Positions 802 to 27,383 of a stretch of 28,048 bases of DNA are shown piece after piece. The position numbers were made by a program, and so were the translations under genes. The notes beneath the pieces are model-generated. The model ran no database searches. It was not told the DNA's origin and worked only from the letters and a program-made list of their open reading frames with translations. How positions within the stretch are numbered: the stretch's first letter is position 1; the number at the start of each line of letters is the position of its first letter. The DNA comes from a bacterium (GTDB taxonomy: Bacteria; CSSED10-310; JAJRTK01), in the NCBI GenBank assembly GCA_024278345.1, contig JAJRTK010000174.1, forward strand, positions 1 through 28,048, in the 5' to 3' direction.

Positions 802-1842
802 GTGGCAATTGAAAAGAAGGAAAGGCCAGAGGGGATTGAAGAATACCGAGAGGGCCTGAAGCAGGTGCTTGACACCTATATCGAGGGCAGGCTTCCCCGT
901 GAGCTCTGGGTTCCGGTGGAAACTTTGCTAGCCCGGCTCGATGAGGACGCATCCGTTTTGCCCTTGGCTGAGCGGAAAAGCCTGGGGCTAGAGGTGATGC
1001 AGGCTTTGGTGCGTCTCCAGGGCCAGGCGCGCCAGAATCTCCCCATGGCCGCGGCTTCCGCCTCTACCGCAGAGCTTCTGCTCGAAGGCGAAGTCGTGGG
1101 AATGGCCTTTGGCATCGTTCTTGACCAGGACTGCACCGGTGAACTGGTACAGGTGGAGGTTCGGGACATGGAGATCGAACCGGCCGTCCGCAGTCAGGTG
1201 ACAATTCAGACTTTCGGACCGCTGGCTAGAGTGGTGACCATCGACGGCGGCTACTATGCGCACTCGCAGTTCACCGATTCCATCAACCGTATCGAGAGGT
1301 TGTTGGAAAAATCGATGCTCGGACGCAAGATCCAACTGGAATGCGAGATCTTGTACTGCCGTGGAGCTGCGCCAGCCCGGAGCCGAACCATCGAGGGCGG
1401 ATCCTTGGCTGGCGCTGTCTTGCTCGCCGTGGTTTCAAAGCTCTACAATCGGTCGCACAGTCGAAATGTGGCCGCCAGCTTCACCGTGGGAAGTGATGGC
1501 CGGATTGGCGGTGTGGACAGCGTAAAGGAAAAGGCGAGGATCGCTAAGAGCCGAGGAATCACGAGGCTTCTTCTTTCGGTAGACGATGAGGAGAAACTGG
1601 CCGAGCTGCCGCCGGAGGAAAGGCCCGAGACCATCGTCTTTCTGCGCCACGTGGAAGAACTTTGGCGTTTCGAGGCCGTGGGGCCGAAGGAATATGCTCC
1701 CCAAGCCGTGTTGGAAGGAAACGAGAGAAACCTCGAGCACCGCCAGAGGCTGCGAAACCATCTTGGTGAGGCAGTCAGACGGCCGTGCGTGACCGTCGTA
1801 TCTGGCCGAAACGAGGGGGACACCTTTATCTTTGGCTGCTGA
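802..1842 (+). CDS. Stand-alone Lon-type (S16) Ser/Lys protease, no ATPase domain
   Basis: The 346-residue product carries a Lon protease domain without the AAA+ ATPase or the usual N-terminal Lon domain. The nucleophile region reads EGGSLAGAVLL (Ser at about residue 201), comparable to DGPSAG in Lon. The lysine region reads GRIGGVDSVKEKARIA (Lys at about 242), comparable to GGLKEKLLAA, and is followed by a Lon-like strand and the ELPPEE end. The Ser-Lys spacing of 41 is close to 43 in E. coli Lon. Residues 1-95 are mostly helical with no signal peptide or membrane segment, so a cytoplasmic location is expected. The last residues (VTVVSGRNEGDTFIF) look like the first two strands of an FHA domain, then the frame stops. 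The SEDS gene follows after 64 bases. Its target is unknown; regulated proteolysis of the neighbouring cell-wall proteins is inference only. Confidence 0.75.
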   Translation: MAIEKKERPEGIEEYREGLKQVLDTYIEGRLPRELWVPVETLLARLDEDASVLPLAERKSLGLEVMQALVRLQGQARQNLPMAAASASTAELLLEGEVVGMAFGIVLDQDCTGELVQVEVRDMEIEPAVRSQVTIQTFGPLARVVTIDGGYYAHSQFTDSINRIERLLEKSMLGRKIQLECEILYCRGAAPARSRTIEGGSLAGAVLLAVVSKLYNRSHSRNVAASFTVGSDGRIGGVDSVKEKARIAKSRGITRLLLSVDDEEKLAELPPEERPETIVFLRHVEELWRFEAVGPKEYAPQAVLEGNERNLEHRQRLRNHLGEAVRRPCVTVVSGRNEGDTFIFGC

Positions 1843-1906
1843 TTCGGCTAGAAAGGAATCCTATAGGGCTCCCCATGCTCTGTGCCCTCAAGAGGTACCA
1901 CAACCC

Positions 1907-4837
1907 ATGATCCCGCCGGAGAGCTGCATAGATCGCCTACTGCGGAGTCTGCTTTCCCTGGGCTTGGGTTTCATTCTGCTGGCCGGGGTGCTCCTCGTCG
2001 CTCTTCTTCCGGTGGAGCCAGGGCAGCTTCGTTTGAGCGTCGTGGGGCATCTGGCGGAGATCCCCGCGGACAGCAGTCTCTTGAGGCTTGGCCGATCGCC
2101 CGCGGCGGATCTTCGGCTCCTCGACCGGCTGGTGGATGGCGAAGTCCATGGCGAGCTCCGGCGGGAAGAATCCGGCCATGAGGTTCCGGGCTCCGCTGGG
2201 CGCTGGTTTGTCTGGAACCGGAGCATCACGCAGCGCCTGGCTGTGGATGGGATCGAGATCACGGAGCGCTGGCTTGAGGTTGGCGATAGGCTGAGGATCT
2301 TCGTTCCGGATCCTTCGGAGGATGCGAAGGGTCTGCAGCGGTTGCTTTTGAAGGCCAGCCCGAAACCCGCGCCCGGTTTGCGGGAGGCAGAGATCGTCAT
2401 CGGTTCGTCCACGCCCTGGGGCCGTCTCTGGGAGGGCCGACCCCTCCCCAGGCAGAGCTTCCTCCAAGAGGCAGAGAGCCACAGAAAGATGATCCTAGAC
2501 CCGCTGGCAGTCCGCAGGTTTGGCGATGGATGGCTTTTTCCGGTGGCCGAGAACTTTTTTTGGGTTTCCCCCGAAAAGGGCCGCCGGCTGATGGAGCCGG
2601 GCGCCAAACTTGATCACGGGGGGAAAGAGTGGGTGTTCGGAACGCGGCTGGAGGGCCTCGATCGCCTCATGGCCGAACGCCCCGAGTTGGAGCTCCGATT
2701 GGGCAGTGGGAGATTTCCTTTTGTTTTCGGGAAAAAAAACCTCTCTTTGGGCGACTGGGGGCGTTTGAAACGGATCGGAGCGCGGCTTCGCTACCGGGAC
2801 CTGGGGCGGCTTGCGGGGATGGAAATCGCCCTGAACGGTCGTGGGACAGTCGTTCCCGGGATGGCTGCCGTGAAGGAGGGGTCCACGGTCAAGTTGGGGA
2901 GGACGCGATACCGTTTCCTTCTGGAAGGCCAGCGGGTCCGCCTGGAAATCCAACCCAAGGGTACGAGTCGGTTGTTGGATTCCTTACCGCTGGTGGGATC
3001 GTTTCTGGGGAAGCTATTTCCCGGATACTACGATTCGGCTTATTCGTTGGGGGAAGGCCCGGTACACCTTTCCACGGGCCGGCTGGGGGAGGTGGGGGAA
3101 TCGGACGTTTTTCTCCGGTCGGCCAAACGCTGGCAGGATCGAAGCCTTGCCCTTCTCACCACCAGCGGTGGGGAAGTCCGTGTTCGCTCCCTGGGGGGAG
3201 TGAAGTTGAGGTTGCGACGGAGATCCGGGGAGTCCGTTGATCTGCCGAACCGGTCCAGCCTCAAGAGCTATGGAGATCTCCAATTGTGGCAGCGGGGCGA
3301 GATCATGTTGGTGGGCGAGAGGCTCGAGGGAGCAGGATTGGTCCTCGAGTTACGGTGGCCTGATGAGCGCGGAGTTTCCGTGGTTTTCGTCCTGGGATTG
3401 GCCTTGTTGCTGTTGGTGGCGCAACTGTTGTTTTTTATGTTTCACCGCCCGGCGGGATTGCGCCTCTTGGATCTGACAAAGCCAGTTTACGGGCTGGATC
3501 CATCCACGGGCCGGGTCAGGGTGGTGGGTGAGCGCGCGGGGTTGCTCTCCATCGGTGTGCCTCGACTGTTGTTGCCTATATGCGGAGCACTGACACTTCT
3601 TGGCATGTCGATGCTACTTCATTTTGGAGTCGAACCCGATCTCTTGGGGTCGCCAGATTTTTTTGCTAGGCAAGCGGTCGCGCTATTCCTTGGCCTGATG
3701 TTGTTTTTCTGGTTGGCCCTCCGCCGGCGGGGAAGGGTTCAGGCGGATGGAGGTACCGCGGCGTCGGGTTTTTGGGGGATTGACTGGGCCATCTGGTTGG
3801 GGATTCTCTCGTTGCTTTTAACGACCATCTTGACGTTGGCGAGAATTGGCTCCCGCCACAACGGCTTTTTCTTTCGAGTCCCGGTCATTGGCGTCACCCT
3901 CAAGTTTTCGGAGTTTGCCAAGATCTTCTTTAGCGTCGGGTTTGCCCGGATGTTCGCCCGAGGCCTCCAGACGGCTCGGGGAGGAGACAATCTTGGAATC
4001 GAGGACCATCGCCTCAACTGGAGGCGCCTGCTTTTTCCCAAGAGACATCATAAAAGTTCGACCGGTGAAGCACTTCTCTACGTCCTGCGGAAAATTGTCT
4101 TGCTTGCGATTCTCCTTGGGGTGATCTTCGGCTTATACGTGCTTCAAAACGACTTGGGACCTGGGTTGATCTTCACGTTGACGCTAGCGCTCTTCTTGGC
4201 CTTCGTCATGGGGCAGTACAACCGCGGGCTGAGGGGATTCGGCCTCCATGCCGGGCCTCAGTTCTTTTTGTTCTTCCTCGTGCTTGGAGTGATGCTCTTG
4301 TGGCTGGCCTTGCCGGTGGAGCTCAAGGCATGGGACGGTCCCGTGGGTAGCGTAGTGGCTCCGATTCTGGACAAAATCGTCGAGCGTCTCAACCTATGGT
4401 GGGAGCCCTGGCGGTTCACCCGTGGTGACCAGGTGGTTCAGAGCCTTTGGACCGTCTCGGGTGTCGCGGGGGAGCTCCGCTATTTCCCGAATCTCCACTC
4501 AGATTTCGCTTTTTCGGCTCTAGTACATCGGTACGGCGTGGCTGTGGGCTACGGTGTGCTCTTGGCTTACGTCGCCTTTTTTGTCAATGGGTTGGCCTTG
4601 TCCCGCGCCCTTTACCGCGAGGCGGTCCGGCAGGGGAGCACTCTTCTTTACGAGGATTCGTTTACGGTGCTTTTGGGCTGTCTGGTTCTGGTGGCGGAGG
4701 CAGCCATCCACATAGGGGCCTGTCTCAACTTGACACCCCTCACCGGTGTCAATCTGCCCTTTGTCTCTAGCGGGGGCACGTCGTTGATCACCAGCTATGG
4801 CCTTCTTGGCGTGATCTGCTCGAGGCTATCCAGATGA
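1907..4837 (+). CDS. SEDS-family (FtsW/RodA) peptidoglycan glycosyltransferase with large FHA-like extracytoplasmic block
   Basis: The 976-residue protein is more than twice the usual SEDS length. ATG 1907 is chosen because AGAGG lies about ten bases upstream and the peptide then opens with a normal membrane helix (about 13-36). Residues about 45-480 are soluble and beta-rich. The first module (LRLGRSPAADL, Gly62-Arg63-Ser64, then VHGEL) is FHA-like, and further FHA-like turns occur (VKEGSTVKLG near 321). A second helix (about 485-508) leads into ten predicted SEDS helices. SEDS landmarks are visible: KFSEFAK (666-672) for QPSEFAK, QNDLG (Asp749) for QPDLG, PNLHSDFAF (Asp866) for PEPHTDFIF, and NLPFVSSGGTS near the end. 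SEDS proteins polymerise lipid II into glycan strands. If the SEDS core is N-terminus-in, the FHA-like block is outside the cytoplasm. The stop overlaps the PBP start (ATGA). Whether it serves division or elongation is not resolved. Confidence 0.85.
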   Translation: MIPPESCIDRLLRSLLSLGLGFILLAGVLLVALLPVEPGQLRLSVVGHLAEIPADSSLLRLGRSPAADLRLLDRLVDGEVHGELRREESGHEVPGSAGRWFVWNRSITQRLAVDGIEITERWLEVGDRLRIFVPDPSEDAKGLQRLLLKASPKPAPGLREAEIVIGSSTPWGRLWEGRPLPRQSFLQEAESHRKMILDPLAVRRFGDGWLFPVAENFFWVSPEKGRRLMEPGAKLDHGGKEWVFGTRLEGLDRLMAERPELELRLGSGRFPFVFGKKNLSLGDWGRLKRIGARLRYRDLGRLAGMEIALNGRGTVVPGMAAVKEGSTVKLGRTRYRFLLEGQRVRLEIQPKGTSRLLDSLPLVGSFLGKLFPGYYDSAYSLGEGPVHLSTGRLGEVGESDVFLRSAKRWQDRSLALLTTSGGEVRVRSLGGVKLRLRRRSGESVDLPNRSSLKSYGDLQLWQRGEIMLVGERLEGAGLVLELRWPDERGVSVVFVLGLALLLLVAQLLFFMFHRPAGLRLLDLTKPVYGLDPSTGRVRVVGERAGLLSIGVPRLLLPICGALTLLGMSMLLHFGVEPDLLGSPDFFARQAVALFLGLMLFFWLALRRRGRVQADGGTAASGFWGIDWAIWLGILSLLLTTILTLARIGSRHNGFFFRVPVIGVTLKFSEFAKIFFSVGFARMFARGLQTARGGDNLGIEDHRLNWRRLLFPKRHHKSSTGEALLYVLRKIVLLAILLGVIFGLYVLQNDLGPGLIFTLTLALFLAFVMGQYNRGLRGFGLHAGPQFFLFFLVLGVMLLWLALPVELKAWDGPVGSVVAPILDKIVERLNLWWEPWRFTRGDQVVQSLWTVSGVAGELRYFPNLHSDFAFSALVHRYGVAVGYGVLLAYVAFFVNGLALSRALYREAVRQGSTLLYEDSFTVLLGCLVLVAEAAIHIGACLNLTPLTGVNLPFVSSGGTSLITSYGLLGVICSRLSR

Positions 4838-7800
4838 AACTTACCCGAACTTTCCAGATCATCGCACGGCACGGGTTGGAGAATGCCCGTTGGTACCTGG
4901 TGATCTTCTTGGTGCTCTTCTGGTTTGGTGCGCTGGGCAAGAGGTTGGAGCACTTGCGGAGGGCGGCTGGAACCGGCGAGCAGGAGATTGCCCTTCGGAC
5001 CCGGGCCGACAAGAAGTTTGTGCCTTTGCGAGTGAACGGTGTGGGAGCCTACTTCAGGATTCGCGATTCTCGTGCGGGAGGAGCAAAAGAGAAGAGCTAT
5101 CGGTTGGAGCCCCTGATGTTTCCCCTCCGCGTGGACGGTCGTGCCGTGGGGCCTGAAGGTTTGGAGTTGGGCTCCGGGAAGCCAAGCCGGACCCTCGATG
5201 TGGATGGACTGAGGTTGAACTTTTTTTCGGATGGAGAATCTCCCATCCTTGCCCAAACCGCCTGGCGAATCGACAGCGACTGCACCACCATGGGAAGTGG
5301 GCTTTCTAGCAGCATAAGCTTAGAGATCAACGGTGTTTCCGGCAGGGTCGCCGAACTGTGCCGAGGCAAAGGGCAGGTGCGAAACGTCTCGACGCGGCAG
5401 GCAATCTGGCTGGCCGGCCGCCGTTTGGGACCTGGTGAGGCGGCTCCTTGGAATCCGAAGGAACTCGTGATTCTCGAACTCCAGACGGCTCGGGGGAAGG
5501 TGCCTTTCCGGATCTCTACGGAGAACCGGAGCACTCTTGTGGAAGCGCCGGAGACGGTTTGGCCAAAATGGGTCATCCATCCGCCATCCATCGTGGGGTC
5601 CCTTCAGATGAACTATACCCGGACGATACCAAGAGAGAAGGTTGACTACGAATTTCTGGAGAGTGTCGAAGCCAGTCTGGAGCAAATACAAGGTGCGGAA
5701 ACGTCCCGGGCGGGAGCCGACAATCCGGATCGTCTCTTTGCCGACGCCCTGGATGTCGGCGGAACGGATGTTGCCAATCTGCCCGTCAGCCGGCGCATGG
5801 ACCGGCTTCTGGAGGAAAGCCGCCGCGAGCTTGCGGCGGGACGCCCAGAGAACTCCCATTTTCTTGCCTCTCCGGGCGGAAGCCTCTTCCTGGGGCTCCG
5901 GCCACGAGCTGTCACGCTTCGCGCTCCGGCAGCCAGAAGAGAGCATTTGCCCAGCCGGCTTGTCGCTGGGAAGGGCGGCGGATCTTTCTTGGAGCTCTTG
6001 GATGGTCCCTTGAAGGGAAGCTTGATTCTGCTCGAGGCTCCAGTTTCCAAAGGGAAGCTCGATCTGGTGGTGATTGGCAGCCAAAGGATGGAGATGCTTG
6101 CCCCGCCGAGCGACCTCCACTTGTGGGGCGGTGAGCCCGGAGCCCTGGCTCTGGCGGGCAGGACTGTCATTCTTTCCAACAAAGGTGCGGCGACGATGCG
6201 TCCCGGGGTTTTGGCTCGCTTGGGTGATGGTTCCAAGGCTTACTACTTGATCCGCCGGGGAGATACCCTGTCGAAACTGCTGAGGGCTTGGGCCGCGGTC
6301 GCCAGCATGCGTAAGCCTCTTCTAAAGAAGGTCCTGAAGGCCAATCCGAACCTCGATCCACGTCGTATGAAACCGGGTCAGAGGATTGAAATCGCATTGG
6401 ACTGGCCCGAGCTTTCCAAGGAGGCGAAGAAACGTGTCGGGAGCTTGGGTAGCGCCGCCCACGTCCGCCTGGAGCGGCACGCCTCGGATCTCTATCTTCG
6501 GGTTCTAAGTGGCCCGGTGTGGTTGGAGGGAAATAGCCTTGCGGAAGACGCCATTGTGCCGCTTCGGGATGGAGACGGGGTGCGAGTGGGAAATCGGGCT
6601 TTCAGCGTCCGCCGGTCGTCGGGAGTCTTGAGGGAGCGCCGCCTTCGGGGCGGCAGGTTCGTGGAACGCTATCCCATGGGGTCTGCAGCGGTTCTGCTAG
6701 GCGGCTTCGAGGAGCGATTGTCGCCGGTGGTTTCCCTCCCCAGCAGTGGAGCGAAGAAGCTTTCCATCGACGCCGACCTCCAGATGATGGCGGATCGTGT
6801 GCTTCGATCCCATTTGGAGTGGCTCGGTTCCCTGGATGGTCGGGCGTACAAGAGAAAGGGGAAAGTTCACGGCGGCAGCCTCGTGGCTCTCGACTACCGG
6901 ACAGGCGAAATTCTTGCCTCGGCAAGCTTTCCGGCCTTTGACCCGGCGGTGCCCGGAAACTACCGGGTGGCAAAGAAAAAGATGGGCGCCAGCGCGCCAT
7001 TCCTGAACCGGGCCTTCCGCTCCACCAGGGCACCGGGGTCGGTCTTCAAGCTTGTGGTCTTGGCGGCCTGGTTCGACCAGTTGGAGCGCCGGGGCGAGCT
7101 CGCGGAAAAAAGTGTTTCCAAGGGGCCTGGATTCTGGTGTGGAGACGGCTATACCGCGGGATCTGGAGCGATCATCCTGGGCGGAAAGAAAGTCCGATGC
7201 CACCGGTGGAAAAAAGGTGGCCACGGTTGGGTACGTAATCCTAGCATGGCACTGCAAAAGTCTTGCAACGTCTATATTGCGAAACTAGCACTCCGGATGG
7301 CCGGGTTGACCTGGAAGGAGCCCTCCGCGGTTCACGCCCCTCAAAGGCTGGACCCCAAGGGGATCCCTACCTTGAAGAACCCGCTCTTTTCCATGGCCAG
7401 CAGGTTGGGCTTTGACTTCGACTACCGGGGGCAGGGTCCGAAGGACCGCAAGATTCTGCGAAATGCCAGGACCCCTTCCCAGGTGGCCGATCTCTTTCAG
7501 CCCCTTGGAATCATTCCCGCGGCCAGACCCGTGTCCGGCTCGATCCCGGCGCCGTTGCACTACGTACCTGGGGCTCGGAAGCTTTTCGATCCCGTGGCCG
7601 CCGGTTTGAAGGAACTTGACCGGAGACCGATCCTGGAGCGGAAACCGGTTCGCCATCTGGCCTACTTGGCCATCGGTCAGGACATGACGGCAACGACGTT
7701 GGAATTGGGGCTCCTCACGGCGACGATTGCCAATGGCGGAGTCATGCCCAGGCTCAGGATCGTGCCTTTTTCATCGCCGAATCGGGGAAAACCGAAGATC

Positions 7801-8235
7801 CCGCCAGACTCTTCTGGTGGTGGGCGCAGGATCTTCTCTCAGGCGGTGGCGGCGCGTATTGCCCACGCCATGGAGCTCGTGACGCAACCCGGGGGCACGG
7901 CTCCACCGCTCCGGTCGCGAGAGCATGGGGGCCGCTATCCTTTCATCATCCGGGCCAAGACGGGAACGGCGCAAGTGTCCGGGACTCGGGGAGACGAATC
8001 TAGGAGGGCCGACTCGCTTTTGGTGGCCTACGTCGATGACCCCCGGCTGCCTTCGGTTGCCATGGCCTGCCGAGTGGAGAATGGGGATGCAACCCGGAAT
8101 CCTCGGGGAGGGATGTTGCCCACGACGGCGAAGCACCTGGCAAATCGCTTTTTTACTTCTCTTGGGGAGATGTACGGAGCTTGGCCCGAGCCCCCGTCTG
8201 AGAAACCGCCAGCCAAAGAGGAGGAGAGCCGGTGA
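4834..8235 (+). CDS. Class B penicillin-binding protein with FHA-like modules and LysM domain
   Basis: This 1133-residue protein is the cognate transpeptidase of the SEDS enzyme, to which it is coupled by a 4-base ATGA overlap. A single membrane anchor spans about residues 22-38. Beta-rich FHA-like modules follow, then a LysM peptidoglycan-binding domain (about 468-525; YYLIRRGDTLSKLL, NPNLDPRRMKPGQRIEI). Another FHA-like module ends with LRDGDGVRVGNRAFSV (about 577-592). The transpeptidase domain has all three motifs: Ser736-Val-Phe-Lys739, Ser810-Cys-Asn812 and Lys1042-Thr-Gly-Thr1045. No GT51 domain is seen, so this is a class B (PBP2/FtsI-type) enzyme that crosslinks strands made by the SEDS partner. 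Typical class B PBPs are 550-750 residues, so the N-terminal half is an unusual addition. All domains after the anchor should be periplasmic, because the transpeptidase must be. Confidence 0.9.
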   Translation: MKLTRTFQIIARHGLENARWYLVIFLVLFWFGALGKRLEHLRRAAGTGEQEIALRTRADKKFVPLRVNGVGAYFRIRDSRAGGAKEKSYRLEPLMFPLRVDGRAVGPEGLELGSGKPSRTLDVDGLRLNFFSDGESPILAQTAWRIDSDCTTMGSGLSSSISLEINGVSGRVAELCRGKGQVRNVSTRQAIWLAGRRLGPGEAAPWNPKELVILELQTARGKVPFRISTENRSTLVEAPETVWPKWVIHPPSIVGSLQMNYTRTIPREKVDYEFLESVEASLEQIQGAETSRAGADNPDRLFADALDVGGTDVANLPVSRRMDRLLEESRRELAAGRPENSHFLASPGGSLFLGLRPRAVTLRAPAARREHLPSRLVAGKGGGSFLELLDGPLKGSLILLEAPVSKGKLDLVVIGSQRMEMLAPPSDLHLWGGEPGALALAGRTVILSNKGAATMRPGVLARLGDGSKAYYLIRRGDTLSKLLRAWAAVASMRKPLLKKVLKANPNLDPRRMKPGQRIEIALDWPELSKEAKKRVGSLGSAAHVRLERHASDLYLRVLSGPVWLEGNSLAEDAIVPLRDGDGVRVGNRAFSVRRSSGVLRERRLRGGRFVERYPMGSAAVLLGGFEERLSPVVSLPSSGAKKLSIDADLQMMADRVLRSHLEWLGSLDGRAYKRKGKVHGGSLVALDYRTGEILASASFPAFDPAVPGNYRVAKKKMGASAPFLNRAFRSTRAPGSVFKLVVLAAWFDQLERRGELAEKSVSKGPGFWCGDGYTAGSGAIILGGKKVRCHRWKKGGHGWVRNPSMALQKSCNVYIAKLALRMAGLTWKEPSAVHAPQRLDPKGIPTLKNPLFSMASRLGFDFDYRGQGPKDRKILRNARTPSQVADLFQPLGIIPAARPVSGSIPAPLHYVPGARKLFDPVAAGLKELDRRPILERKPVRHLAYLAIGQDMTATTLELGLLTATIANGGVMPRLRIVPFSSPNRGKPKIPPDSSGGGRRIFSQAVAARIAHAMELVTQPGGTAPPLRSREHGGRYPFIIRAKTGTAQVSGTRGDESRRADSLLVAYVDDPRLPSVAMACRVENGDATRNPRGGMLPTTAKHLANRFFTSLGEMYGAWPEPPSEKPPAKEEESR

Positions 8236-8359
8236 TGATAGGCGAGGGGCGCGAACGGCCGTGAGCGACGTGAGCGGAACACAACTCAAAAAAGGATAAT
8301 TTTGGTGGAGACATGTTGGCGGAGCTCCTGTAAGATGAGCTGGACCTTTTTCTTTGCCT

Positions 8360-8366
8360 GGAGAGG
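8360..8366 (+). promoter_or_regulatory. Ribosome binding site deciding the start of the 670-aa protein gene
   Basis: GGAGAGG abuts an ATG at 8367 but lies six bases before the in-frame ATG at 8373, which is therefore the more likely start (product MEIYPESLG...). Confidence 0.65.
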
Positions 8367-8372
8367 ATGAAC

Positions 8373-10385
8373 ATGGAGATCTATCCCGAATCCTTGGGCC
8401 GTTTGGTCCGCGATGATCTTCTGCAGAGCCAGTCCTTTTTCGAGCCGGGGCAGTTCGCGTACATCCTGGAGATTTCGGTGAAGCACTATCTTCGCCACCA
8501 CCCGGTTGAGTTGCTGGAGGTCACGCTGGATCCGAGTTTTCTGGCTGAGCTGCGGACGGCTGGAGTAGAGGTGGAACGGGTTTGCGGTATGGTGGCTTCA
8601 CGGTTGCTGGGATCGGGTGGCGGAAGAGTTCGGATCCACGTGGTTGGCCGTGCCGGTATGGGGCTTGGCTCCCGGGAGTTGGGCCTGGGTCCGGGAGATT
8701 ACAGGTTTGTGGAGGGCGGCAGTGCTGCCGGGGATCTCGTGGCCCATTTTCTGGATGGCGACACGGAGGTCTATTCTCAGCTTTTCGAAGGAGAGCTCCA
8801 TCTGGCGCCGGGCAAGGTGACTCGGTCGTGGGTATTGAAGCGGATTATCGAGCAAAAGTATGGGGAGATTCGCAATATTTACGAAGGTCGTCTGCCCCCG
8901 TCGCAACTGGAAGCACTGGATGTACTTGAGGTTCGGGTCGAGCTTCATGGAAGCGGCGGTCTGGAGGTCGAGATCGAGCCCGTCGGCCGGCGCCAGCGGG
9001 TTCGTTTGGGGGAACGGGTTGAGATCTGCGAAGTCGAGGCCAACCGGAAGCTGAGTTTCATCGTTCTGCCGCGAGGCCAGGAGCTTAGCCCGCCGGAGGT
9101 AAAGAATTGCTGGGTCGCCGTGGCTTCCCACGGCAGACTCGAAGTGGCAGCCTGTATCCGTGATCCGTTCGAGCTTCAAGATTCGAAGGTCCTGGCTTTT
9201 GTGAACCCCAGGCATGGTCCCGCGGCGGAGGCCTGTGTGGAGCTTTGCCTCGTGGACCGGAAGGGCTCGCTCCAGATCTTTCGGGGAGGCGTGGACGGCC
9301 TCACCCCGGCGCTTGCGCCCGGCGTCGTCGTCGATTTGCGGTTGTCGGGAAGGAGTCGGACCGGATTTAGCCTGGAATCGACGGGCAGAGGCATTGTGGA
9401 GACGGAAGTCCTTTCGTTGGAAAGGCCTGAGCCTGTGGCGGCGCCTGGATTCTTGACGCCGGAGCTCTTGGCCAGGGGATTCGATCTAGAGTTCCTCTTG
9501 AGGGGAAGCCAGTTCCAAGGAGGGGAGGTCAAGCTCATCTGTCGCCAGGACAATGAGATCCTCGAAGTCGGGAGCGGTCGGGTCCGCCAAGGGCAGGTGC
9601 GTTTTTCGGTGTCTCCCTTAGAAAGTGGGCTCGATGAGCCGCTCTCCTTTTGGGTTGCGTCCAGGCTTCACGAGCTGCCGCTGACCTTGGAGGGGAACGG
9701 GCGTGATTCGCCATTGCTTTCCCTTCCCATTTATCCGATTCCTCCCGGTGCTCGGCCGCTTTTCGGCCGCGACAATTTCCTCTTTTCGGGGGAAGAGCTA
9801 TTGTTTGGGGACGAACGTCTCCGTCTGGTTCGATGGTCTCCCACGTGGAAAGTTGTTTTCCCCGATCCGGAGGCGTATCCCTATTTCCTGTGGCGCTCTT
9901 CTCCAAGGTTGCCTCGGCGGTTCGAAGTCTTGAGGGAGTCGTTCGCCGTGGAAGGTGACCAGACTATCCAGCGCGTGGTCATCGGTGCGGATTGGAAAGG
10001 CAGAGTACCGATGGAGGGGGAGAAGCTCGTGTCCATTGCGGCCCTGGGGCGTGATTCCTACATGTTTATCGAGTCCGACGGGGTTGGCGGTGTCCGGATC
10101 TTGAAAGCGGCCGGTCGAGTTCACAACGTTTCCCTGAACTTTCAGCCGCTGGAGTCCGTGACTTCCCTGCCTTCTGGGCGCAGTCTGTTGGTGGCCGGAA
10201 ACGCCCTCTTCGGAGTGGAGTTTGGCGAAGGTAGCTTGGAGCTGGCTCTTCTTGGGCATTATCTTTCGAGCGACGCCCTGAGTGTCGGAATACGCCTGAC
10301 TTCCGGGGATGTGGCGGACGGGGATCTGAGTTCCATCACGATTGCCGCCCATGATGTTCGGAGCTTGGTTCTGACGAAGGAGTGA
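8373..10385 (+). CDS. Large beta-rich protein of unknown function in the FHA/SEDS/PBP locus
   Basis: I do not recognise a family for this 670-residue product with confidence. There is no signal peptide or membrane helix, so it is probably cytoplasmic. The first 110 residues mix helix and strand (YILEISVKHYL, VTLDPSFLAELR, VERVCGMVASRLL, VRIHVVG). In layout, not clearly in sequence, this recalls the N-terminal DUF3662 domain of actinobacterial FhaA. Residues about 145-175 are helical (KVTRSWVLKRIIEQKYGEIRNIYEGRLPPSQL). The rest is almost all predicted beta strand with FHA-like turns, for example FLFSGEELLFGDERLRL in the last third. It starts 137 bases after the PBP gene and ends three bases before the next start, so co-translation with its downstream neighbour is likely. 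A scaffold or sensor for the synthase pair is a guess from context. Confidence 0.7.
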   Translation: MEIYPESLGRLVRDDLLQSQSFFEPGQFAYILEISVKHYLRHHPVELLEVTLDPSFLAELRTAGVEVERVCGMVASRLLGSGGGRVRIHVVGRAGMGLGSRELGLGPGDYRFVEGGSAAGDLVAHFLDGDTEVYSQLFEGELHLAPGKVTRSWVLKRIIEQKYGEIRNIYEGRLPPSQLEALDVLEVRVELHGSGGLEVEIEPVGRRQRVRLGERVEICEVEANRKLSFIVLPRGQELSPPEVKNCWVAVASHGRLEVAACIRDPFELQDSKVLAFVNPRHGPAAEACVELCLVDRKGSLQIFRGGVDGLTPALAPGVVVDLRLSGRSRTGFSLESTGRGIVETEVLSLERPEPVAAPGFLTPELLARGFDLEFLLRGSQFQGGEVKLICRQDNEILEVGSGRVRQGQVRFSVSPLESGLDEPLSFWVASRLHELPLTLEGNGRDSPLLSLPIYPIPPGARPLFGRDNFLFSGEELLFGDERLRLVRWSPTWKVVFPDPEAYPYFLWRSSPRLPRRFEVLRESFAVEGDQTIQRVVIGADWKGRVPMEGEKLVSIAALGRDSYMFIESDGVGGVRILKAAGRVHNVSLNFQPLESVTSLPSGRSLLVAGNALFGVEFGEGSLELALLGHYLSSDALSVGIRLTSGDVADGDLSSITIAAHDVRSLVLTKE

Positions 10386-10388
10386 GGT

Positions 10389-13388
10389 ATGTCACGGCGT
10401 TTCTATCTTCAGCGGCGGGAGTCGAACGAGGTCCACGCTTACCAGGTGGGGGATTGGATCGATGGCGCCTTCAACGGGAAACCTCTGTCGTTTCGGCTAC
10501 AAGCCCTGGAGCATGGGGGGAAGAAGCGTTTTCTTCTGGGTTTTCGGGATGCCACGGGCCACCAGCAGTTCTTGGGTCGGGTTCAGGGGGACAATCTGGT
10601 TTTCAAGAGCGCTCACACTTCGGTGTACGAGCAGTTCGCTCCTCGCCGAACGGAGTTCCCTGAGAGCGGTGTGCGGCAAGGTGATATTCTGGTTGGCTCG
10701 AACATTTGGAGCGTCGATTATTGGGTGCCAAAAGCCTTTTCCACCAGGGAGAAGGCTTTTGTTTTGAGGGCGCGGGATGGCGGAGTTGTGGCTGTTCCAT
10801 GTGCTGGAGGCGGCCTCCGGATGTTGACCTCCGATGAGCAGGCCACGCGCCCTGTAACGGGTGATGACCTCTTGCTTTTTTCCGCAAAAGAGCTGGAGAG
10901 CGGAAGCACGAGGCGCGCCTGTTTCTTGGCGGACGATGTTCTGTACGAGGTCGTGCTGCCAAGAGCGACCAAGGTGCAAGCTGACTTTCGGCTGGCGACC
11001 ATCGGTTTTGTGCTGCAACCAGATCTCCACTGTGTCACCTTGGGCTTTTCGGACGATTGCACCGTAAAGCTCCACTGGGAGGGACTGGGAAGAGGTTCTC
11101 CCGTGTCGGGGGGGGATCAACCGCTTTATACGCTCTGGTTCGAGGCCTTGAATTGCCGAGTGGACGGGGCCGCGGTCTTTTCGTCCATGGGCCGCGCATC
11201 CGACTCTGGAACCGATCTGGAGGAGCTCAACGAGTTCTTGCGTGGCTGGATGGCCGCCAGCTCGATGGACGCAGAGACTTCCGTGGCGCCGTCTTCTTCT
11301 GGAGAGCGCCCGAAAACGGAGGTTTCTCCCCGGGCTTCAGAGTCTGAGCTCCCGGCGAGGTCTCGCACGGCCTCTGGTGAGGCCGTGGTCAACCAGCAAT
11401 TCGTCCTGGAGAAGTGCCGTAAGGTTCTGAGCAAGGCCCGGGAGATGTCACGGGGGCCGGAAGTGGAGAGTCAGGCAGACGATCTCCAGCGCCTTCTCGA
11501 TGTCAAAGACTACCACGAGGCGTCGATTCTTGCCGAGCGCCTAAAATGCGCTCTCGATGGATTGGAGCGCCAACGGGAGAGAGCCTGCCAGAACCTCGTG
11601 CATGGCCGCCGTTTTCGTGTGGGTGCCTCGGACTTTTGGTTCCTGGAGCGCCAGCGGCTGGCCAGACAGGAGGTGCCGCAGCCGGAAGATTATCCCGCAC
11701 TCATCCTTTGCTGCCAGCCGACCCTCCTTTGCACCATCGAACAAGAGTCTGAGAAGCTCCGCCTCACTTCCGGTGCTGGAGGCGAATCCGTCATGGCTCC
11801 TGAGCTTCATCTGGGCCGCTATTCGCCGTCGGAGACGGAGCATGAACCCGATGAGCGCATGTTTCGCCCACCGGCGGCAGCGGGAGGCGCGGCGGAACTC
11901 CTCTTTCCCCGGGCCAACTATTCTGTTTCCTCCAGAGCAGCCCGCTTCTTTCTCCAAGAGGGAGAATTGATTGTGGCTCCGTGGCGGGAGAACCGTTTCG
12001 AAGGCGATAGAGTGGTCGTCAACTTCCAATTGGTCCTGGAAGAGCCCCAGGATCGGGCCCTGCTCAAGGATGGAGATTGGCTGGTTCTGGGCAACCTCCT
12101 GCTGAAGCTTCAACGCCATCCCACCGCCGAAGCCTGGGAGGTTCTGCTGGCTGGAGCCCTGCTGGAGAGCTCTGACGAGGAGCTTTTCTTAGGTCCGCTT
12201 CTGGCGGACAGCGTCGGGCTACCAACCTTTCCCCCGACCGATGCACCGGAAGCGCCCGCCGAGGTCTCCATGGCCTCCGGCCCCGGAGTCGCCACCACCG
12301 GAGAAGACCAGGCAGCCCAAGCTCAGGCTCGGATCCGCTTCCAAGCCGGTTGCCAGCTCACGGAAGGAGATGCCCCCCCCGATGGCACCGGTTATCGTTT
12401 CGGCACCTACCTCATTCATTGTGAATCCGACGATGCGGGAATCCGTCTGCGGTTCGATTCCAATCGCATTCCTCTCCTCAGATTCGGGAGGTCGGATGCG
12501 GGAAAACTCCTTTACAGTCAGCAAAAGCGCCTCACCCGGGTTCAAGGAGGACCCCTTTACCCAGAGGCTGAGACCCTGGCCGTTGGCCTCAACTGGAGCC
12601 GGACACGGGACCTTCCCGGAGTCGATCTTCGGCTCTACGAAGAAGGCACGGAATGGGAGCCGAGCCCTCTGTTTTTCGAGATAGCCTTGGATCCAGAGAC
12701 GAAGGAGCCTGTCTGCCAGCCCGGTAGTTGGGGGGCGCCCCTCTCCAGAGCCGACAAATCCGCACCCTTGGCCCATCTCCGGGATGGGGAGATCTCGCCG
12801 AATGCGGAGCTGCGGCCGGGCGACCTGCTCGTCTGCCCTCCCGTGACGTTTCAAGTGTCGGAAGTCGAAGGGGTCCAGGGCATGGAGCTCGAACTCGACA
12901 TCTTGTTGGTGACTCTGGCTTCAGGGAGGACGGGTTGGATCGCCGGCCTGGAGGCGGAGCTGCCCGATCCCGATGAATGGGTGTTGCGGATTCCCGCTCC
13001 CGTCACTTCTTGGAAAAAGGCTCGCTGGACCAGCGCCGGTCGATTCGAGATTCAGGAGGAATTCGAAATGCTGGGGCTGGAGGAGCCCGCCTTCCCCGTT
13101 TCGCCGGAAGCGAGCTTTCATCTTTTCGAGGCGCCCCGGATCACCATCGGTGGGCCAGGTTCTTGCGCAACCCTCGTGCATCGAGATTTGCAACCCGGTG
13201 CCCTCTTCGCCGAGATCGAATCGGCCGATCCGGGAGCCTGCCTCAGACCGCTTGGCCCCGGAATCTCTCTTTGGTGGCGCCGCGGAGACGAGCGGGTCGA
13301 TCCCGTGCCGCCGGAAGGTATCTCGTTGCAGGAAGGTGATCGGTTTGGCATCGGCAAGGCCGAGCTGGAATTCCAACTCACTTTTTGA
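10389..13388 (+). CDS. Giant multi-module protein with repeated FHA-like folds
   Basis: This 999-residue product starts at an ATG with AGGAG about eight bases upstream, three bases after the previous stop. It has no signal peptide or membrane helix. It appears to be a chain of beta modules, several ending in the FHA-like turn 'hydrophobic-x-x-G-D-x-hydrophobic': VRQGDILVG (about 97), LKDGDWLVLGNLLLKL (about 559), LRPGDLLVCPPVTFQV (about 808) and LQEGDRFGIGKAELEFQL (about 978-995). The last module also has an FHA-like opening (PRITIGGPGSCATLVHRDL). A helical stretch at about 330-400 (VLEKCRKVLSKAREM, LDVKDYHEASILAERLKCALDGLERQRERA) may be a coiled coil. I do not see full canonical GR...S..H phosphothreonine-binding sets, so ligand binding is uncertain. 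No named family is assigned. Confidence 0.7.
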   Translation: MSRRFYLQRRESNEVHAYQVGDWIDGAFNGKPLSFRLQALEHGGKKRFLLGFRDATGHQQFLGRVQGDNLVFKSAHTSVYEQFAPRRTEFPESGVRQGDILVGSNIWSVDYWVPKAFSTREKAFVLRARDGGVVAVPCAGGGLRMLTSDEQATRPVTGDDLLLFSAKELESGSTRRACFLADDVLYEVVLPRATKVQADFRLATIGFVLQPDLHCVTLGFSDDCTVKLHWEGLGRGSPVSGGDQPLYTLWFEALNCRVDGAAVFSSMGRASDSGTDLEELNEFLRGWMAASSMDAETSVAPSSSGERPKTEVSPRASESELPARSRTASGEAVVNQQFVLEKCRKVLSKAREMSRGPEVESQADDLQRLLDVKDYHEASILAERLKCALDGLERQRERACQNLVHGRRFRVGASDFWFLERQRLARQEVPQPEDYPALILCCQPTLLCTIEQESEKLRLTSGAGGESVMAPELHLGRYSPSETEHEPDERMFRPPAAAGGAAELLFPRANYSVSSRAARFFLQEGELIVAPWRENRFEGDRVVVNFQLVLEEPQDRALLKDGDWLVLGNLLLKLQRHPTAEAWEVLLAGALLESSDEELFLGPLLADSVGLPTFPPTDAPEAPAEVSMASGPGVATTGEDQAAQAQARIRFQAGCQLTEGDAPPDGTGYRFGTYLIHCESDDAGIRLRFDSNRIPLLRFGRSDAGKLLYSQQKRLTRVQGGPLYPEAETLAVGLNWSRTRDLPGVDLRLYEEGTEWEPSPLFFEIALDPETKEPVCQPGSWGAPLSRADKSAPLAHLRDGEISPNAELRPGDLLVCPPVTFQVSEVEGVQGMELELDILLVTLASGRTGWIAGLEAELPDPDEWVLRIPAPVTSWKKARWTSAGRFEIQEEFEMLGLEEPAFPVSPEASFHLFEAPRITIGGPGSCATLVHRDLQPGALFAEIESADPGACLRPLGPGISLWWRRGDERVDPVPPEGISLQEGDRFGIGKAELEFQLTF

Positions 13389-13557: not shown

Positions 13558-14658
13558 GTGTCAAGAAGACCCTCTTCCGCCAGCGCCCTTCCATGGATCG
13601 GCACTCTAGCTTGCCTCTTGCTCCTGGTTCTGGCGGCCTGGTACTGGTGGAGGCCCGGCAGACCGGAGCCGCGGCTGGAGGCCCCGGAAGAAGCGGTGGC
13701 AGCCTTCTATTCAGGATTGGCCGCTCTTGCCGTTGATGAAAGAGAACTGGCAATCGATCAGTTTCGGCGGGCGGTGGCGCTGGCTCCGGAAGAACCAGCT
13801 ATCTGGGCGAATCTCGGGCTGGCCGAGCTCCGGGCCGGCCAGATGGAAGGTGCCGGAAAAGACCTGGCTCAGGCTGCGAGCCTGGCCCCAACCCACGGGG
13901 AAGTGCGGTTTTTCCAGGGCCTCCTGGAAAGCCGAAAAGGCAATCCGGCGGAGGCCATCCGCCACTTTGGGGACGTGATTCGTCTCAATCCCGGCCATCT
14001 CCAAGGGCGGTACTCCATCGTGAAGGAGATCCAGAGACGTGGCGAAGAAGGCAAAAACGACGAGATCAGCAGGCTTTGGGAAGAAATGCTGGAACTGCGG
14101 CCGGCGAACCTTGCCATTCTTCTGGAAATGGCACGCCAGGCCGCGGAAACCGGTCACCGGCAGAGGCTTGACCGTGCCGTCCTAGGCCTCTCCAAACAGG
14201 CGAAAAACTGGCCGGACCAGGCGCAAAAGGCCTTTGAAATGCTGGAGAAGGCCGCCGGAGACAAAGATGTTACGGCGGCCCGGGTCCGGGCCTTGGTCCT
14301 CCGAAACCTGTTGGTCCGAACCTACGAATTCCGGCGGGACCTGGCGGAGGTCCACACGCCTCCAGAGAACCCCGGCGCACCGCTGGAAAGGTTCATCATT
14401 CTGGCCACTCCACCGGTGGAAACCGCCGAGCCGGACATGGCCTTGGGTTTTCAGATAGAACTTTTTCCTGAGCCCGCCGCCACGGCGCAAAACCGACAAA
14501 ACTCGGGAGCCGGCGCTGGAAGAGTTACGGATGAGGCGGGGAGATCTAAGACCGGATCTGGAGGAACCCCGGAAACGCCGGAAAAACCTTCCGGCGGCTC
14601 CAGAGAGGCTCCGAAACAAGCAGGGAGACCTGTCACCGTCTCCAAGGAAGCCTCGTAA
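13558..14658 (+). CDS. Membrane-anchored tetratricopeptide-repeat protein
   Basis: The 366-residue product starts at GTG 13558 with a good AAGGAG. A signal-anchor helix (about residues 11-31, preceded by Arg) is followed by TPR units from about 45 to 260, for example AFYSGLAALAVDERELAIDQFRRAVALAPEE-type helices with the typical A-x-x-L-G/A and P spacing. The C-terminal part (PDMALGFQIELFPEP) resembles the short bridge that, in many TPR/ASPIC proteins, leads into FG-GAP repeats. After it comes a low-complexity Gly/Pro/Glu/Lys linker, then TAA at 14656. The next gene is in the same frame with no other stop between, so this may be the N-terminal half of one interrupted protein. The repeats probably lie outside the cytoplasm and mediate protein contacts. 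Confidence 0.8.
   Translation: MSRRPSSASALPWIGTLACLLLLVLAAWYWWRPGRPEPRLEAPEEAVAAFYSGLAALAVDERELAIDQFRRAVALAPEEPAIWANLGLAELRAGQMEGAGKDLAQAASLAPTHGEVRFFQGLLESRKGNPAEAIRHFGDVIRLNPGHLQGRYSIVKEIQRRGEEGKNDEISRLWEEMLELRPANLAILLEMARQAAETGHRQRLDRAVLGLSKQAKNWPDQAQKAFEMLEKAAGDKDVTAARVRALVLRNLLVRTYEFRRDLAEVHTPPENPGAPLERFIILATPPVETAEPDMALGFQIELFPEPAATAQNRQNSGAGAGRVTDEAGRSKTGSGGTPETPEKPSGGSREAPKQAGRPVTVSKEAS
14656..14658 (+). other. Single in-frame TAA separating the TPR and FG-GAP/ASPIC halves
   Basis: Reading on from the TPR gene in the same frame, TAA is followed by an open stretch (GRWTSFLPLWLKGEGQPLL) that runs into the FG-GAP protein without another stop. The downstream half has no signal sequence of its own. 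A nonsense mutation or a sequencing error in one ancestral gene fits. Two separately translated genes remain possible. Confidence 0.6.
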
Positions 14659-14715
14659 GGGCGCTGGACCTCTTTCTTACCGCTCTGGCTGAAGGGCGAA
14701 GGTCAGCCTCTTCTC

Positions 14716-17178
14716 GTGGCTGGCGGTTTCTCGGGCATCGTTCAACTTCCCCCGGGCAAGTCGTTGCTCCCATTGCGGGACAAGAAACGGAGGAGCCTCC
14801 TTCCTTTGGATTGGAACTCCGATTTTAGAATGGATCTCGCCGTCTGCGGTTCCGGGGGGTTGAAGCTGGCACTTCAGGGGAACAACAGCAAGTTCGAAGT
14901 CCAGGAAAAGATTGTCCCGGAGTCCCTTTCCAAGGCTGGCTGTGGAGCGGTCTGGGCCGTGGACCTAGAGATGGACGGAGACCTCGATCTTCTAATGGTT
15001 ACAGGTGGCTCTGCCGTTCGAGCCTTGCAAAACAACGCCGACGGGTCGGCGATTCTCTTAGACCCGTTTCAAGGCTTGGACGGCGCCCGGGCATTCGCCT
15101 GGGGGGATCTTGACCTGGACGGCGATCCTGACGCGGTCTTTCTGGATGGGGCTGGCCGCCTGAGGATCTACGCCAACGAACGCGGGGGCAGGTTCCGGTC
15201 ACTTTCCGGCCTCCCCGATCAAATTGGCCGGGACTTGGTTATGGCCGATACAGACGGAGACGGCCACTTGGAACTATTGCTTCTGACCCGGAAGGGCGGC
15301 GTCAAAGCCTGCACGCTGCTTCCCGGCCACCAAGGTTGGAGCTGCGCCACTCTCATTGATCCGCCAGTGGAAAGGGATTTACCGGAAAAGCTGCTCTTGG
15401 GAGACCTGGACAACAACGGCGCTCTCGATTTGGCTCTTGCGGGGCCAAGTCGAACCGGAATCTGGCTTGGAACCGGCGGGGACTTTTCAAAGCTGGAAAA
15501 GGTGCTTGATTTCGGGGCTACGGCCCTAGCCGACATCGACGGGGATGGCAGGCTAGAGGTGATGGGCCTGACGAAAGATGGGGAGGCAGTCCTAGCCAGG
15601 TCCCGGGGAACACTGGACTATCGATGGCAAGTCCTTCGCCTTCGTGCCCAGCAGGTTGCCGGAGACCAGCGGATCAATTCGTTCGGCCTCGGTTCCGTCG
15701 TGGAGTTTCGGGCCGGCCTCCAGTACCAGAAGCTCCTCGTGGAGGGACCGCTGCTCCACATTGGCCTTGGGCGTGCGCGGAAATCGGATGTCGTTCGGAT
15801 CCTCTGGCCCAACGGCACCGTCCAGGCCGAATTCGATCTAGATTCCAACGCCGTGGCCGTGGCCGAGCAGCGCCTGAAGGGCTCCTGCCCTTGGCTCTTC
15901 GCCTTCGATGGACAAGAGGTTCGGTTCGTCACCGATCTTATCTGGCGATCTCCCCTTGGGCTCCGTATCAACGCACAGGAGACGGCTGGCGTGGTCCAGA
16001 CCGAGGATCGCGTCAAAATTCCAGGTTTCATGCTCTTTCCCGTCGATGGCCAGTACGATCTCCGGATTACCGCCGAGCTTTGGGAGACCCATTTCTTCGA
16101 TCATCTCTCTCTCATGGTGATCGACCATCCAGCCGACACCGAGATTTCTATCGACGAACGGTTCTCCATCCCGCCGCCCTCCCTTGACCCCGTCTTGACC
16201 TCGCCTCTCAGGCCGATCCTCCGCGCTCTTGCCCAGGGCGGGAACGACGTGACAACCCTGATCCGGGAAAAGGATGGCCAGTACCTTGCCTCCTTCGGGC
16301 TGGGCCGCTACCAGGGAATCGCCAACGAACATTTCGTAGAGCTGGAGCTTCCACAAGCGGCGGATGGCCACGGCTACCTCGTGGCCGAGGGATGGGTCCA
16401 GCCCACCGACAGCTCTCTCAACGTGGCCATGGGCCAGGGCCGCCATTCCCGGCCCACCCCACTCTCGCTGGAAACCTATGGGCCCGACGGCCATTGGCGG
16501 ATCGCCAGGAAAAACATCGGCTTGCCCGCAGGGAAGAACAAGAGGATGCTCATCCCCCTCAAGGGGCTGTTCGAACCTTTCGGACCCCGCAGGCTCAGGC
16601 TCAGAACGAATCTCGAAATCTACTGGGATCGGATTTCCTGGGTGGAAGCTCCCTCTGGCGCATCGATCCAGATGACGCGGCTTCCGGCCAGCAAAGCCAC
16701 ACTCCACCATCGCGGCTACTCCGTCGTGGAAAGAGCCTCCCGTTCAGCTCCGGAACTCCCCCGCTACGGAACATTGCAGGGAATCGGGCAACGCTGGCTC
16801 GATCTGGAGGGTTTCTACACGCGGTACGGCGACGTCTTGGAGCTCCTGGAAACGACCGATGACCGAACGGTCATCATGAATGCCGGCGATGAACTACTCC
16901 TGAAGTTTGCTGCCCCCGACCCGCCTCCCTCCGGGTGGCGCAGGGACTTCGTCCTCGTCGCTGACGGTTGGGTCAAGGACGGCGACTACAACACCGCATT
17001 TTCCAAGACCGTTCGGCCACTGCCATCCCACGACTGGCCCCAATACGACTCCATGCCCGCCTCCTTGGAAGCCGAGCCAGTCTTTAGGCGTTATCCCGGC
17101 GATTGGCTGCGTTACCATACCCGCTACGCGACGCCGGAGCCCTTCTTCCAAGCCCTCGTTCCCGCCAAGCAAGACTGA
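14716..17178 (+). CDS. FG-GAP/VCBS repeat protein with ASPIC/UnbV domain
   Basis: The 820-residue product has five Asp-rich calcium-loop motifs of FG-GAP type: DLEMDGDLD (about 83), DLDLDGDPD (131), DTDGDGHLE (178), DLDNNGALD (230) and DIDGDGRLE (273). These are typical blades of an integrin-like beta propeller. An ASPIC/UnbV domain follows (about 318-376; NSFGLGSVVEF, LLHIGLGRA, ILWPNGTVQ). The last 440 residues are beta-rich and unassigned. Such proteins are normally extracytoplasmic, yet this one begins directly in propeller sequence with no signal peptide. The GTG 14716 start has only a weak, distant GAAGG upstream. Both facts suggest it was once the C-terminal part of the TPR protein just upstream. 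Family proteins are often single TPR plus FG-GAP plus ASPIC chains; their ligand is unknown. Confidence 0.75.
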   Translation: MAGGFSGIVQLPPGKSLLPLRDKKRRSLLPLDWNSDFRMDLAVCGSGGLKLALQGNNSKFEVQEKIVPESLSKAGCGAVWAVDLEMDGDLDLLMVTGGSAVRALQNNADGSAILLDPFQGLDGARAFAWGDLDLDGDPDAVFLDGAGRLRIYANERGGRFRSLSGLPDQIGRDLVMADTDGDGHLELLLLTRKGGVKACTLLPGHQGWSCATLIDPPVERDLPEKLLLGDLDNNGALDLALAGPSRTGIWLGTGGDFSKLEKVLDFGATALADIDGDGRLEVMGLTKDGEAVLARSRGTLDYRWQVLRLRAQQVAGDQRINSFGLGSVVEFRAGLQYQKLLVEGPLLHIGLGRARKSDVVRILWPNGTVQAEFDLDSNAVAVAEQRLKGSCPWLFAFDGQEVRFVTDLIWRSPLGLRINAQETAGVVQTEDRVKIPGFMLFPVDGQYDLRITAELWETHFFDHLSLMVIDHPADTEISIDERFSIPPPSLDPVLTSPLRPILRALAQGGNDVTTLIREKDGQYLASFGLGRYQGIANEHFVELELPQAADGHGYLVAEGWVQPTDSSLNVAMGQGRHSRPTPLSLETYGPDGHWRIARKNIGLPAGKNKRMLIPLKGLFEPFGPRRLRLRTNLEIYWDRISWVEAPSGASIQMTRLPASKATLHHRGYSVVERASRSAPELPRYGTLQGIGQRWLDLEGFYTRYGDVLELLETTDDRTVIMNAGDELLLKFAAPDPPPSGWRRDFVLVADGWVKDGDYNTAFSKTVRPLPSHDWPQYDSMPASLEAEPVFRRYPGDWLRYHTRYATPEPFFQALVPAKQD

Positions 17179-27300: not shown

Positions 27301-27383
27301 AGGTGGCCTCCAGCCAATCCCTCCAGCGGCTTCTCCAAGCGGTAGACGCCGAGCAGGAAGCCTCTTCCCATTTTCTTTTCCAT
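24372..27383 (-). CDS. Degenerate Ser/Thr protein kinase (probable pseudokinase) with PD40/TolB-like beta propeller
   Basis: The 1003-residue product has a PknB-type kinase domain (about 14-345), a Lys/Arg-rich linker, one membrane helix (about 375-393) and a C-terminal propeller of PD40/TolB repeats (such as SPDGRQVAFYS, SPTGQEIAFST, APDGSKLAFVA, SPDGEEIAYSV). The propeller should lie outside the cytoplasm. The kinase fold is recognisable (HRDLKPS, YMAPEQLRG, ARSDVFALGVVLYQMATGHHPF), but key residues are changed. The VAIK lysine is Arg43 (VALRF), the metal-binding Asn after HRDLKPS is Asp141, and DFG reads Gly-Cys-Gly (154-156), removing the Mg-binding Asp. HRD Asp136 remains. A long insert precedes the APE motif. 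Phosphotransfer is therefore doubtful. The start with GGAGGGG four bases upstream is chosen; a duplicated start lies 72 bases further upstream. Confidence 0.85.
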   Translation of the reverse strand: MEKKMGRGFLLGVYRLEKPLEGLAGGHLWSAIDTSKNRAVALRFLPRHLVEDEDRRAQLRQEAQVMIALEHPGVVPIDTVEEADGFWFATMELVEGTFLGGLIPATGMEPDRFLDVAMELTETLAAAHERGIVHRDLKPSDIVVDGEGGIRILGCGLADLEFDSGTREPSGKDPLAASLGQGLQEQISRLAQPNCPREQLLLDSLSSWGVSVSQALECKAESLFESASYMAPEQLRGRPADARSDVFALGVVLYQMATGHHPFEGETTAHCLTTVLEKTPPPVSELNPKLPKGLDPLISRCLEKKSWKRPWSAFEVLEELAVLPRAGRMKKNRQTRRSRGKGSGGAGPGGTGKISHGLTESEARAVRRSETTATVVRLGVAMAVAAACGWFLWTGFREAVSNTDGEKTGFRPLFVLSASIPERPRITPDGRFIVYDSWTAGAHDLFRLPIGRGQPLNLTRTLPGIQASGSVSPDGRQVAFYSSGDAAHWWEGALYAMPLELEQPKKLTSAPAWHPSWSPTGQEIAFSTGMSDPEGFAFIPSSSRVEAVNLQNGKTRVLAKNGLEPDWSPHGQRIAYWLRNRKTGTAEIWTVSSMGKNARRLPLAGFSAVWRPIWSHGGRYLYFSGIRSVGKLATTIWRMAIDEKTGRIESGPKPVRLKGYALSPSFSRGGRRMVSLVRQKSNRLKRLGIDLGREAVMGTPTGLYPGDKRLDIVDVELSPAGQHLALTRYNAKRAHFSIQVRGLRGKVAASIPGAGYPAWAPDGSKLAFVANRDGQLALWVVKANGASFDKLTESTAPIPEWGYQSSLLWSPDGEEIAYSVDHRGTVLLNVERRIHRFLPLTGLGQFYAEDWSRDGKHILGWVRANGGPMAGGWGPDAWFLYEVETGRYRRLDFGSLGAIVRPRWLPDGKRLIFFVPTGAKSAVLTIWNLLENKGTEVFSVPFAAPREIEVSLDGRFLYFCYAETKTNLSITEIKPPTAVKKRRARAWAPGKRKKQKRTRPRAT

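Follow-up and report, generated by a model that had tools for sequence, protein, structure and literature searches.

The window analysed here is the whole of contig JAJRTK010000174.1 (28,048 nucleotides), which is contig C96 in our sample and belongs to a genome of 6.06 Mb in 550 contigs (assembly GCA_024278345.1) from a bacterium of the CSSED10-310 lineage. Our subject is a run of five consecutive co-directional genes at positions 802 to 13,388, in particular gene 2, a putative SEDS polymerase, and gene 3, a class B penicillin-binding protein (PBP), both of which have long extensions where modules similar to forkhead-associated (FHA) domains can be recognized, most clearly in gene 2. The run is real, as five open reading frames (ORFs) of the + strand fill the span:

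802-1842, + strand: gene 1 (P0002), Lon-like S16 protease-domain protein (Pfam Lon_C, PDB Lon chains, residue positions)
1832-4837, + strand: gene 2 (P0003), FHA-extended SEDS polymerase, 1001 residues (PF01098, tree grouping, Asp891)
4834-8235, + strand: gene 3 (P0004), FHA/LysM-like-extended class B PBP of the PBP2 type, 1133 residues (PF00905, pbp2_mrdA, catalytic motifs)
8367-10385, + strand: gene 4 (P0005), 672-residue protein without recognised domain (Pfam, hhalign, hydropathy)
10389-13388, + strand: gene 5 (P0006), 999-residue protein with FHA-like stretches and a helical coil (hhalign, hydropathy)

Genes 1 and 2 overlap by 11 bp, unless gene 2 starts later, at an ATG near position 1909; the best start of gene 1 is GTG 802, which is preceded by GGAGGGG. 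Genes 2 and 3 share 4 bp, a gap of 131 bp separates genes 3 and 4, and one of 3 bp genes 4 and 5. The boundaries of the run are not marked by promoter- or terminator-like sites; promoter-like sites do not exceed their frequency in shuffled sequence, and terminator-like sites are somewhat commoner (35 vs 23.2 in the shuffles, standard deviation 4.9).

The two enzymes are readily identified. Gene 2 belongs to the SEDS family (PF01098, E = 1e-18, 68 bits against a curated cut-off of 26.4) and keeps the catalytic aspartate, Asp891, in an NLHSDF motif of the loop before transmembrane segment 8 (TM8), where it is aligned with that of all paralogues. Gene 3 is a class B PBP (PF00905 Transpeptidase, 4e-24; best NCBIfam match pbp2_mrdA, 1e-33), with all the transpeptidase motifs in place (S736xxK, S810CN and K1042TG). 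The catalytic cores are located as follows:

3536-4825, + strand: SEDS core of gene 2 (Pfam; 37% identity to relatives across residues 657-998)
6760-8172, + strand: transpeptidase domain of gene 3, residues 643-1113 (hhalign 99.8% to PBP2 and to the PBPs of the third pairs described below)

Pfam finds no PBP_dimer match for a pedestal (dimerisation) domain in gene 3, and hhalign detects none upstream of about residue 603; all that is seen is a trace of 24 residues (603-626). In the one giant PBP of a second phylum that was tested the match to ordinary PBPs likewise starts near the end of the pedestal. Judged by its sequence, gene 3 is thus an atypical class B PBP, whose assignment as a transpeptidase is unaffected by the pedestal result.

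The extensions were scored with hhalign, segment by overlapping segment, against an FHA profile that we built using 26 clear FHA domains found in the same phylum. Shuffled segments and unrelated proteins of the window served as controls. The shuffles gave a 95th percentile of 0.9% and a maximum of 9.8%, and the unrelated proteins at most 2.1%. The following features were recognized in the extensions and in gene 5:

2069-2299, + strand: FHA-like module 1 of the SEDS extension, residues 80-156 (hhalign 92%, E about 5e-7; Pfam FHA)
2771-2929, + strand: possible FHA-like module 2 of the SEDS extension, residues 314-366 (hhalign 16%, against the shuffle maximum of 9.8%; colinear in relatives)
6244-6393, + strand: LysM-like stretch of the PBP extension, residues 471-520 (Pfam LysM, E = 0.16, below cut-off)
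6520-6621, + strand: C-terminal part of an FHA-like module of the PBP extension, residues 563-596 (hhalign 35%)
11913-12128, + strand: FHA-like stretch of the 999-residue protein, residues 509-580 (hhalign 66%)
13101-13379, + strand: C-terminal FHA-like stretch of the 999-residue protein, residues 905-997 (hhalign 46%)

The evidence is strongest for module 1. As a fragment it falls just below the curated cut-off of Pfam FHA (PF00498, E = 0.0015, 19.3 bits vs 20.7), and at the same position all five homologues match this family (best 1e-5), two of them above the cut-off. Four of the five members of the module 1 family also match Pfam Yop-YscD_cpl, the degenerate FHA domain of YscD/SctD in the type III secretion ring; domains of this kind are ring scaffolds and not readers of phosphothreonine, although they differ from those described here in being cytoplasmic and not fused to wall enzymes. 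Against the PDB the module 1 alignment gives three weak matches (E = 0.18-0.61), to proteins that we take to have FHA or FHA-like domains. These comparisons support an FHA domain in the SEDS extension and, more weakly, modules of FHA-like type in both the PBP and the 999-residue protein; in the PBP, residues 553-618 match its giant counterparts of the second phylum at 83-89%. The initial annotation had described both enzymes as FHA-extended, which holds for the SEDS protein and less firmly for the PBP, and had counted two FHA-like orphan proteins, of which the 999-residue protein remains. Segments of the 672-residue and Lon-like proteins score below 1% against the same profile.

Hydropathy shows two segments of gene 2 beyond those of the SEDS core:

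1949-2005, + strand: extra transmembrane segment before the SEDS extension, residues 40-58 (hydropathy)
3380-3436, + strand: second extra transmembrane segment, where the extension gives way to the SEDS core, residues 517-535 (hydropathy; followed by a positive loop)

The extension has a hydrophobic segment on either side of it, in gene 2 as well as in both relatives checked, and the second of these segments is followed by a positively charged loop into the SEDS core. The membrane orientation of this core is established for RodA and FtsW; if it is kept here, the flanking segments would place the SEDS extension on the extracytoplasmic side. Both enzyme extensions should then lie outside the cytoplasm, that of the PBP on the assumption that this protein is bitopic. 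The residues that read phosphothreonine are not retained. In the ordinary FHA domains of the phylum GR and SxxH are present in 26/26 and S.NG[TSI] in 22/26, whereas none of five extended SEDS proteins has GR, SxxH and S.NG together, and gene 2 has GR only; most likely, the FHA-like modules do not read phosphothreonine.

These observations bear on the proposal that the five genes form a phospho-signalling wall system similar to the actinobacterial fhaA-fhaB-rodA-pbpA-pknA-pknB cluster, in which the enzymes have acquired the FHA parts by fusion and a protease stands in for the kinases. The two loci are alike in bringing SEDS, class B PBP and FHA content together, and the order SEDS to PBP, the FHA-like parts and the tight spacing of genes 2-3 and 4-5 all agree with the proposal, as do the richness of the genome in FHA domains (34 matches) and the presence of a Ser/Thr kinase gene 11 kb from the run (24372-27617, - strand). 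Nonetheless, we consider it very improbable. An extracytoplasmic location would remove the basis for cytoplasmic phospho-signalling through the extensions, the Arg/Ser/Asn set of the phosphothreonine site is not retained, and the domain scan bears out that the run itself has no kinase or phosphatase gene; that a protease replaces the kinases is unsupported. No counterpart of gene 1 or gene 5 lies next to the relatives examined, and the sampled genomes have none of gene 4. Finally, in actinobacteria the FHA proteins exist on their own and are phosphorylated by PknA/PknB (PMC3989709). The analogy with FhaA/FhaB fails on topology as well as on the binding site. Within the annotated start of the kinase ORF, which also has a PD40 part, there is a perfect 72-bp tandem duplication (27374-27517) that repeats 24 residues in frame, and the true start may therefore be downstream.

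The genome has two further SEDS genes, and both contigs concerned also have a transpeptidase gene; these are the FtsW/FtsI and RodA/PBP2 pairs, which makes genes 2 and 3 a third pair. Eight genomes of the phylum were sampled (all the genomes analysed are probably metagenome assemblies), and five of the other seven have a third PBP-SEDS pair of ordinary size, side by side and without FHA parts. In these ordinary-size pairs (L039, L040, L041, L042, L043) the PBP has PBP_dimer_2 where scanned, and the neighbourhoods vary. A sixth genome (G006, Candidatus Schekmanbacteria) encodes a SEDS-class B PBP fusion in a single ORF of 1218 residues (L037:11418-15074, - strand). Natural fusions of this type have been reported (PMC10449877), and this one shows that they occur in the phylum; genes 2 and 3 differ from them in that the partners are separate and the added parts FHA-like.

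The extended pair is not confined to this genome. When 386 genomes from across the domain were sampled, just one further family proved to have close relatives of gene 2 (G134, G270; E = 1e-39, 37% identity, ORFs of more than 1100 residues); the sample apparently holds few genomes per phylum, so a wider occurrence is possible. In the phylum of this family, the second and distant one, a giant SEDS is present in 5/5 sampled genomes, and the same five have a giant homologous PBP of 1400-1660 residues. Gene 2 and the giant SEDS proteins (four used) form one group in the tree, with support 100/99. The next-closest SEDS proteins are about 500 residues long and come from two further families (E about 1e-21 to 1e-24; L080:9303-10814, L081:9255-10766, L082:9422-10924); no PBP match was found among the flanking ORFs tested. 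Gene 2 had no match in genome and viral contig scans, nor did alignment-based scans of viral contigs return any; the only match in the last genome-contig scan was the SEDS-PBP fusion of a Candidatus Schekmanbacteria metagenome-assembled genome, and gene 3 compared with plasmids retrieved generic PBPs only. No FHA-SEDS fusion appears in the literature searched. The pair is thus a real lineage, and apparently an undescribed one; to this extent the candidate new wall synthesis genes of the initial annotation stand, as the pair recurs outside its own genome and is absent from the papers searched.

Two SEDS proteins were found in each genome of the second phylum, one ordinary and one giant, and the ordinary one is nearest in the tree to the FtsW of our genome, with weak support (84/77). 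This distribution would suit a diverged elongation synthase with the function of RodA/PBP2, whose extensions are wall-binding or spacing modules without regulatory role: the second phylum has just one other SEDS, which is FtsW-like, the best family of gene 3 is PBP2, and its extension includes a LysM-like stretch. We regard this explanation as unlikely but worth keeping in view, because our own genome retains an ordinary RodA/PBP2 pair, and because long extensions of the same type are found on both partners, not on one alone.

The remaining genes of the run have a different distribution. Gene 1 (348 residues) has an S16 domain (Pfam Lon_C, 8e-7, 29.3 bits vs a cut-off of 21.1; PDB Lon chains down to 5e-5), and Pfam and NCBIfam scans find no AAA+ domain in it, in agreement with its description as a stand-alone Lon-type protein. 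Numbered from TTG 796, Lys244 is aligned with the Lon dyad and Ser203 is shifted by one residue (GGSLAG vs GPSAG); the two match the dyad if one inserted residue is allowed. Matches to PADLOC defence models were weak and partial, setting the S16 stretch against much longer models (best BrxL, E = 0.002), and were not taken to indicate a defence role. At the end of the ORF (1780-1842) stands VTVVSGRNEGDTFIFGC, similar to strand 1 of an FHA domain. We rejected the idea that this C-terminus (VTVVSGRNEGDTF) is a truncated FHA start, since the translated downstream ORF offers no continuation and hhalign finds nothing. A search of the phylum gave one weak match elsewhere for gene 1, to a Lon-like ORF, and inspection of the loci around the giant genes gave none. 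Gene 4, in which the domain scan recognises no domain, has no credible relatives in the 386 genomes, and gene 5 has none in 13 genomes of both phyla; weak matches of the two elsewhere are chance-like (E = 0.002-0.1, one in a frame with four stops). Hydropathy predicts no transmembrane segments in the 672- and 999-residue proteins, and these, like the Lon-like protein, look cytoplasmic. What links genes 1, 4 and 5 to the SEDS/PBP pair is adjacency, and they may or may not belong with it. In terms of synteny, the pair recurs in the second phylum but the five-gene set is not kept, and the proposal of one conserved five-gene system is unsupported. A tetratricopeptide repeat (TPR) protein, with a likely start at GTG 13560 after AAGGAG, and an FG-GAP/UnbV_ASPIC protein follow on the same strand 171 bp past the run (13560-17178), and may share its transcript.

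These results can be viewed in the light of what is known for other SEDS-class B PBP synthases. We consider it probable, though by no means secure, that the proteins of genes 2 and 3 form a dedicated third peptidoglycan synthase, docked and gated by extracytoplasmic FHA-like extensions. The SEDS protein would polymerise lipid II and its PBP2-type partner would cross-link the product; each would present, on the outer side of the cytoplasmic membrane, an extension of 450-640 residues made largely of degenerate FHA-like beta modules, with a LysM-like stretch in the PBP. The FHA-like modules of the PBP would occupy the place of the ordinary PBP2 pedestal, and because of this position the modules most likely serve to dock the enzymes to one another and to the wall, and to gate the activity of the polymerase, as the PBP2 pedestal does with MreC in Rod systems. 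In E. coli, the PBP2 pedestal and MreC control RodA (PMC6207328); a takeover of docking and gating by the FHA-like modules is in our analysis the most economical reading. The pair shares with RodA-PBP2 and other such synthases the two catalytic families, the cognate pairing and a PBP2-type transpeptidase, and differs from them in the FHA-like extensions of both partners, in the lack of a detectable pedestal upstream of about residue 603 of the PBP and in the two extra transmembrane segments of the SEDS protein.

Several observations weigh against this interpretation. The giant SEDS and PBP genes overlap in G388 only and lie apart in the other four of the five genomes, and, apart from FHA module 1 and residues 553-618 of the PBP, the extensions of the two phyla show weak homology. 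The transmembrane segment of gene 3 is under the hydropathy threshold, with a hydrophobic stretch visible at residues 20-35 and a clear segment in the relatives. Single-sequence structure predictions were unusable for both the 999-residue protein (pLDDT 35) and FHA module 1 (pLDDT 38). Lastly, parts of the usual loop ahead of the catalytic Asp are lost from the SEDS core of gene 2, so that polymerase activity is not assured. Together with the loss of the usual Glu pair after this Asp and, in the relatives, the lack of a TM4 Lys, the shortened loop could signify a degenerate or enzymatically silent pair kept for scaffolding. We find such a pair improbable, as genes 2 and 3 keep the HSDF Asp together with SxxK, SCN and KTG, and all of these are visible in the alignment of the relatives wherever the contig is complete.

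A further step from a dedicated third synthase, which we propose tentatively and as a possibility only, is that the pair represents a distinct class of SEDS-class B PBP synthase: FHA-like modules of the two enzymes would interlock outside the cytoplasm, in place of the pedestal and an MreC-type activator, and the pair would provide the sole non-FtsW wall polymerase of its kind in a whole phylum. How class B PBPs activate SEDS polymerases is a central question of wall synthesis, and a pair whose enzymes seem to have taken on large matching modules in exchange for the usual pedestal offers a test case for which contacts are essential. If true, it would also mean that FHA-type folds are used outside the cytoplasm, apart from the reading of phosphothreonine.

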